Assembly: GCF_022814725.1 (NCBI RefSeq)
Contig: NZ_CP093442.1
Location: 992,001 to 1,056,000, forward strand
Direction of reading: 5' to 3'
DNA: 64,000 bases
DNA from: Bdellovibrio reynosensis
Lineage (GTDB): Bacteria > Bdellovibrionota > Bdellovibrionia > Bdellovibrionales > Bdellovibrionaceae
Below, piece after piece: positions 15,791 to 16,147 of this stretch. The position numbers and the translations under genes were made by a program. The notes under the pieces were generated by a model. The model was given only the letters and a program-made list of their open reading frames with translations. It ran no database searches and had not been told where the DNA came from. Position 1 is the stretch's first letter, and the number at the start of each line of letters is the position of its first letter.

Positions 15791-16028
15791 TTATTTTTTC
15801 AGAAATATACTGCTCGAGATTTTCTACTGTATCGAAGTTATCGAACACCATCTCGAAAGGCTCTACTTGAATACTCCATTTTTTTTCAATCATTAAAATA
15901 AGTTCAGTAAAGGCTAAAGAGTCTAGCAGATGGTCTTTAAATAATGACGTGTTCTCATCAATATTTTGACCTTCGTTTGCCATACGTTCCATAATAAAAT
16001 GAAATAAAGTTATCTTAATGTCAGACAT
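15780..16028 (-). CDS. Acyl/peptidyl carrier protein (DltC-like)
   Basis: An 82-aa acidic four-helix carrier protein. The phosphopantetheine attachment site is DSLAF with Ser37 and the helix II pattern TELILMIEKKW follows, as in DltC-type proteins. It is expected to hold an acyl group as a thioester after activation by the adenylating enzyme encoded at 18006-19418 and to present it to the MBOAT. Its ATG shares one base with the TAA stop of the DltX-like microprotein (TAATG). A phosphopantetheinyl transferase is not in the window. Confidence 0.87.
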   Translation of the reverse strand: MSDIKITLFHFIMERMANEGQNIDENTSLFKDHLLDSLAFTELILMIEKKWSIQVEPFEMVFDNFDTVENLEQYISEKINGT

Positions 16029-16147
16029 TAAAACCCCATGTACCGAAAGGTTGTAAAATTAGAGGAAAAAGCAAACGCTAGAATAACTAAAGTTAAAGTT
16101 AAAGTTGCGACTAAAAGCTTCATCAGATCCTTAAAGACTATTTTCAT
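16028..16147 (-). CDS. DltX-like acyl-shuttle microprotein (39 aa)
   Basis: A 39-codon gene in the gap between the VOC gene and the carrier-protein gene. After a short basic N-terminus (MKIVFKDLMK) comes one hydrophobic helix of about 17 residues (LLVATLTLTLVILAFAF), a brief polar linker and the C-terminus FRYMGF. This fits DltX: a single-pass microprotein whose last six residues, F-x-Y-x-x-F, carry a tyrosine that the MBOAT acylates and DltD then unloads. The stop overlaps the carrier-protein ATG by one base, and the start lies 11 bases after the VOC stop. The topology (C-terminus outside, basic residues inside) agrees with the positive-inside rule. The ribosome-binding site is weak, so translational coupling to the VOC gene is likely. 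Confidence 0.82.
   Translation of the reverse strand: MKIVFKDLMKLLVATLTLTLVILAFAFSSNFTTFRYMGF

Follow-up and report, generated by a model that had tools for sequence, protein, structure and literature searches.

In a surface-polysaccharide locus of Bdellovibrio reynosensis, a frame of 39 codons that ends in the hexapeptide F-x-Y-x-x-F raises the question of whether a DltX-like microprotein serves as an acyl shuttle in this bacterium and, if it does, which acyl group it would carry. The frame is located in the 64,000-nucleotide stretch of DNA analyzed here (hereafter, the window), which belongs to a genome of a single contig (3.58 Mb), and its operon is flanked by genes for a UDP-GlcNAc 2-epimerase, a UDP-sugar dehydrogenase, a NeuB-family synthase, and other proteins of a surface-polysaccharide locus.

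The small gene and its operon

When the frame at 16028-16147 was translated, it was found to be open on the minus strand (16147..16028), the strand being a detail that the initial annotation had left out, and to encode a protein of 39 residues, MKIVFKDLMKLLVATLTLTLVILAFAFSSNFTTFRYMGF*; the plus-strand reading of the same positions is full of stops and was rejected. This candidate DltX-like microprotein has one hydrophobic stretch (best 19-residue Kyte-Doolittle mean, 2.29), in agreement with the single transmembrane helix proposed earlier, and a Lys-bearing basic N-terminus, and its C-terminus would be placed outside by the positive-inside rule. The last six residues read FRYMGF (F34-R-Y36-M-G-F39; 16031..16048, minus strand), which is the F-x-Y-x-x-F end that had been noted, and the codon of the putative acyl-carrying Tyr36 occupies 16040-16042 on the same strand. 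In 1.6 Mb of DNA, furthermore, only four of the 11,739 ORFs with a length of 25-60 aa were found to have an FxYxxF end, and the window microprotein was the only one that also had a transmembrane stretch.

The microprotein gene is part of a tight run on the minus strand, in which most of the neighbors overlap or almost touch. The run starts with a MenE-like AMP-forming acid ligase, the likely cargo activator (19418-18006; PF00501, E 3.7e-40), and continues with ComB, a divergent 2-phosphosulfolactate phosphatase (17997-17311; PF04029, E 9.4e-23; PDB 2yyv, E 2.5e-9), ComA, a phosphosulfolactate synthase acting on PEP and sulfite (17324-16557; PF02679, E 6.4e-79), and a protein of the VOC/glyoxalase fold (16566-16159; PF00903, E 2.5e-11), and the microprotein is then followed by a carrier protein (16028-15780), a DltD-like protein (15790-14789), and an MBOAT (14799-13654). 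The TAA stop codon of the microprotein shares one base with the ATG of the carrier-protein gene (TTTTAATG), and the TAATG coupling described before is thus correct. The small gene had also been said to sit exactly where dltX would be; this holds for the adjoining carrier gene, but the upstream neighbor is the VOC gene and not directly the ligase, and the phrase is loose in any case, since dltX precedes dltA in Gram-positive operons (PMC5541007).

The carrier protein is an acyl/peptidyl carrier of 82 aa with a putative DltC-like role (PF00550, E 1.3e-6); its phosphopantetheine site is DSL with Ser37, and a phosphopantetheinyl transferase of the PF01648 (ACPS) type is encoded in the same genome. 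The DltD-like protein has no match in Pfam, but Ser68 within GASS and Asp303 and His306 within DLLH are, together with Gly66, invariant in an alignment of ten sequences. The top PDB match of its structure model, which is of modest confidence (pLDDT 63), was DltD (6pfx, E 2.6e-6), with further DltDs, SGNH hydrolases, and PatB ranking behind it, and we thus predict an SGNH-fold transferase of the DltD kind. No homologs of this protein were found among 119 relatives or in plasmids, and its conservation was hence sought via MBOAT and ComA. The MBOAT itself (381 aa; PF03062, E 3e-14) scored 110 bits against the DltB model TIGR04091, under the equivalog cut-off of 375, and was matched by DltB structures at E 1e-13, with its conserved His295 in MGLWHG aligned to MGFWHG of DltB. 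Its C-terminus is SLFTNIKNVI and therefore contains no shuttle motif, just as had been claimed. Given the fold, the His residue, and the absence of an own motif, the protein is predicted to be a short MBOAT of the DltB type.

Where the shuttle motif sits

DltB-family-like MBOATs were sampled from the window's own phylum, Bacteroidota, and Pseudomonadota, giving 91 readable loci that represent top-ranked matches and not a random sample. All 66 long MBOATs (454 aa or more) were found to have their own C-terminal xYxxF, and none of them was accompanied by a genuine microprotein; a microprotein-like ORF near one of them (L026) is distant from the MBOAT gene and was attributed to chance, and one chance match among 66 loci under the same search rule means a low false-positive rate. 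None of the 25 short MBOATs (372-445 aa) carried the motif at the C-terminus, and 24 were beside a transmembrane microprotein that ended in the motif or its close variant. Among these 24, L076 was read from a fuller contig, and L217 was read by eye, as its FRYAGF microprotein had been missed by the hydropathy cut-off and had made the locus a seeming exception at first. The sole exception (L034:2637-2760; L051) has a hydrophobic microprotein ending FQYVQ, an end that may be degenerate or reflect a sequencing error. In total, 25 microproteins adjoin short DltB-like MBOATs across three Gram-negative phyla.

The motif is thus carried either by a long MBOAT or by a microprotein, as one would expect of a microprotein that provides what the short MBOAT is missing; the initial annotation had made this very proposal, and it holds in silico. 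A relative whose MBOAT bears its own motif and lacks the small gene had been regarded as evidence to the contrary. Such MBOATs do exist, namely all of the long ones, but they constitute the other half of the same rule. From the comparison of these loci, the proposed shuttle role of the microprotein is well supported, and an overlooked small gene would be predicted beside every short MBOAT.

Several loci in this sample deserve separate mention. Between the MBOAT gene and the carrier gene of L039-L045, seven loci that belong to the same phylum as the window, microproteins of ~33-35 aa are encoded that end in GFQYEF, i.e., F-x-Y-x-F, which is one residue shorter than the canonical hexapeptide. 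A motif-bearing microprotein by a short MBOAT (L014:1275-1427, the same gene as L046:5157-5309) matches DUF5989 (PF19451, E 4.9e-7), a family of unknown function that has no mention in the literature searched and may represent a DltX-like acyl shuttle. In Pseudomonadota (L230:7937-14163), an FRYAGF microprotein is located between an uncharacterized 374-aa protein and a short MBOAT, and this locus also matches exosortase-A-associated ligase and decarboxylase models; a Dlt-like relay may operate in this exosortase-type polysaccharide locus. Carrier-sized ORFs, moreover, adjoin long MBOATs with their own motif (L015, L019, L020, L021, L023, L024, and L029; PF00550 was confirmed in L015 and weak in L023), so that dependence on a carrier does not always go together with a separate microprotein.

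A genome scan for ComA revealed a second copy of the window's cassette. Within 6 kb of a 7.4-kb metagenome contig (L076), which was binned as Bacteroidetes/Bacteroidota, a phylum assignment that could be wrong, genes for the microprotein, carrier, ligase, DltD-like protein, MBOAT, ComB, ComA, and VOC protein are arranged in another order. The L076 microprotein, whose gene adjoins that of the carrier protein, shares with the window microprotein 18 of 36 aligned residues in a forced alignment (14/38 by BLASTP, E 9e-6), and its last seven residues, TFRYMGF, are identical, while the larger proteins share 24-48% identity. In another locus (L089), ComA and a long, own-motif MBOAT are less than 5 kb apart, but this locus was rejected as the same system, having neither carrier nor microprotein.

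The ends of the FRYxG(F/L) type, namely FRYMGF (window and L076), FRYLGL (L197), FRYFGL (L199), and FRYAGF (L230), all occur beside a single MBOAT clade (98/95 support) that spans three phyla; none of 500 label shuffles gave a value as low, and the result was unchanged on removal of either long branch. The other short MBOATs are accompanied by FQYEF, F(V/E)YQ(E/Q/K)F, and further ends. The type of microprotein is hence predicted by the phylogeny of another gene, as expected for interacting partners, and conservation of the last six residues, a check suggested at the outset, is borne out within this clade.

Conservation of the frame itself was examined in other members of the class, with the window gene having no close relative for such a comparison, and the changes between close pairs were mostly synonymous: 16 synonymous versus 7 nonsynonymous codon differences with no second-position changes in L007/L011, and 12 versus 5 in L008/L009. 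A strong ribosome site is absent at the start codon of the window microprotein, which would be in line with an ORF that is untranslated or has a structural or assembly role only, with its Tyr not acylated. We consider this very improbable, however, in the face of the codon-level constraint, the heptapeptide that is identical in another phylum despite the divergence of its partners, and the complementarity with MBOAT-borne motifs. Judged from its sequence, the small ORF is a real gene.

The candidate cargo

While the shuttle part of the locus had been recognized by the initial annotation, the unusual genes for ComA, ComB, and the VOC protein had been missed. Of 54 near-invariant columns, 49 are kept in the window ComA, which also matches phosphosulfolactate synthases of solved structure (1u83/1qwg) and is predicted to be an intact enzyme.

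The overall plan of the operon (ligase, carrier, DltB-like MBOAT, DltD-like SGNH protein, and DltX-like microprotein) is that of D-alanylation, and true dlt operons do exist in Gram-negative bacteria (L231 and L048), with DltAs that score 363-410 bits against the DltA model and retain the Asp residue binding the amino group of D-alanine (PMC4176424, PMC8972799). That a Gram-negative bacterium has here acquired an ordinary Dlt system is nonetheless improbable. The DltA model was not among the best 25 NCBIfam models for the window ligase, with MenE models being preferred, and the amino-binding Asp is replaced with Val, a position assigned from the FDxS motif and not by direct alignment with a solved DltA. 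In the ligase tree, furthermore, the window and L076 ligases are sisters (100/99) apart from the DltA clade, and the window MBOAT falls outside the clade formed by the true DltB proteins of Gram-negative bacteria. The ligase is thus predicted not to be a D-alanine-activating DltA, and we set plain D-alanylation aside, which would also leave the ComA/ComB/VOC genes unexplained.

ComA-type enzymes participate in bacterial coenzyme M synthesis, and ComA and ComB might then belong to such a pathway and be adjacent to the acylation genes by chance. This possibility is similarly slight, given that neither ComC (PF02615) nor the alpha subunit of sulfopyruvate decarboxylase (ComD family, TIGR03845) was matched in the complete genome, although the bacterial route can bypass both, and that the adjacency recurs in L076. 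Coenzyme M is therefore not an evident end product. Sulfolactate has a free carboxylate, so that its loading onto the carrier is chemically plausible, and the gene company in the two loci points to sulfolactate, or its close derivative, as the cargo.

A stronger competitor retains the same shuttle machine but gives it another load, such as a different hydroxy acid or an acid that the VOC protein would make, with the products of ComA and ComB used elsewhere, for example, in a sugar or a soluble metabolite. Indeed, L037 has ComB-ComA-VOC but no Dlt-type genes, VOC-type neighbors (41-52% identical) accompany ComA in many phyla and in most of the ComA loci, and the ligase is matched best by MenE, an enzyme whose substrate is a different acid. 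ComA is also common in Bacteroidota without Dlt-type neighbors, none of which was found within ~1.5 kb on either side of the Bacteroidota ComA loci other than that of L076 itself; ComA alone is thus no marker of the cassette, and sulfolactate from the ComB-ComA-VOC module may be put to another use. On the other side, this ligase/MBOAT subtype occurs in two loci only, the window and L076, and both have ComB, ComA, and VOC directly adjoining and carry sister ligases. We regard another cargo as a possible but rather less probable explanation, to be kept in mind.

ComA and VOC genes have, as a separate observation, neighbors encoding AMP-forming ligases of a separate clade in Actinomycetota and Alicyclobacillus (L055, L057, L066, L083, L098, L103, L109, L117, L127, and others). 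L037 and L038, which come from genomes of different families (G106 and G069), share identical comB and ATP-grasp-like proteins, suggesting misbinning in one of the genomes.

Returning to sulfolactate, we propose that an envelope-acylation system of the Dlt type attaches sulfolactate, or a compound closely derived from it, to a surface glycan through ester bonds, with the microprotein acting as its acyl shuttle, a proposal to which we give an even chance. ComA and ComB would produce (R)-sulfolactate, which may be altered by the VOC protein, and the AMP ligase would load its carboxylate onto the carrier protein as a thioester. The short MBOAT would then pass the acyl group through the membrane to Tyr36 of the FRYMGF tail, and the tail would swing to the periplasmic SGNH protein, where Ser68 would take the acyl group and pass it, as an ester, to a hydroxyl of the polysaccharide that the genes around the operon produce for the cell surface. 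The Tyr relay is proposed here by analogy with Dlt and PatAB; a relay via acyl-Tyr has been demonstrated for PatAB, and one is described for DltX (PMC12148441). In the literature searched, which covered few subscription journals, we found no paper in which sulfolactate is connected with the acylation of polysaccharides.

Comparison with known systems

The DltX of Gram-positive dltXABCD operons resembles the window microprotein in being a short single-helix protein with a basic N-terminus and a C-terminal F-x-Y-x-x-F, and in having a carrier-dependent MBOAT and an SGNH protein as partners. The term "DltX-like" is accordingly apt for topology, C-terminal end, and shuttle logic but not for family membership: neither the window nor the L076 microprotein matched PF12459 (DltX) at E up to 10, a search in which the DltX of B. 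thuringiensis, as a control, gave 2e-21. NCBIfam also returned no DltX match, but the control was unmatched there as well. The window locus, with its DltB-like, DltD-like, and carrier genes, differs from dltXABCD in gene order, in its non-DltA ligase, and in the extra ComA/ComB/VOC genes, and its polymer is presumably a Gram-negative surface glycan instead of teichoic acid.

The presence of a DltX form in a Gram-negative locus, which had been presented as unusual, is found here but is not without precedent, since DltX of the same topology and with no sequence similarity was already reported in Dickeya and Pectobacterium (PMC5541007). L231 looks, from its sequence, like a dlt operon of that type; it shares with the window a motif-bearing microprotein by a short MBOAT, a carrier protein, and DltD, but has a true DltA, a microprotein ending HFEYQQF, and an MBOAT of another clade. 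In PatA/PatB and AlgI-type MBOAT-SGNH acetylation, the predicted relay of the acyl group from MBOAT via Tyr to the SGNH protein has its counterpart in PatAB (PMC12148441), but the motif is fused to the MBOAT C-terminus, the donor is acetyl-CoA, and there is neither carrier nor microprotein. It was stated in 2025 that MBOAT-SGNH pathways other than Dlt have neither a carrier protein nor a microprotein like DltX (PMC12148441); as far as gene content tells, this statement does not hold for the loci described here, which represent a broad Gram-negative class with both. Coenzyme M and spore sulfolactate syntheses share the same first two enzymes, ComA and ComB, and lead to ComC/ComDE or free sulfolactate, whereas ComA and ComB in the window are joined to a ligase, a carrier, and an envelope acyltransferase.

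Taken as a variant of the Dlt kind, the system is strong in its shuttle reading, and sulfolactate as the cargo is a good hypothesis that can be tested. That a Dlt-type relay with a dedicated microprotein puts sulfolactate on a Gram-negative surface polysaccharide and thereby adds sulfonate charge, as a mobile cassette of eight genes present in two phyla, is a tentative proposal that we hold at slightly below even probability. If it is true, bacteria would have, in this cassette, a way to employ sulfolactate for decorating surface glycan with charged groups, and the cell surface would become more negative, whereas classical Dlt, with D-alanine, removes negative charge.
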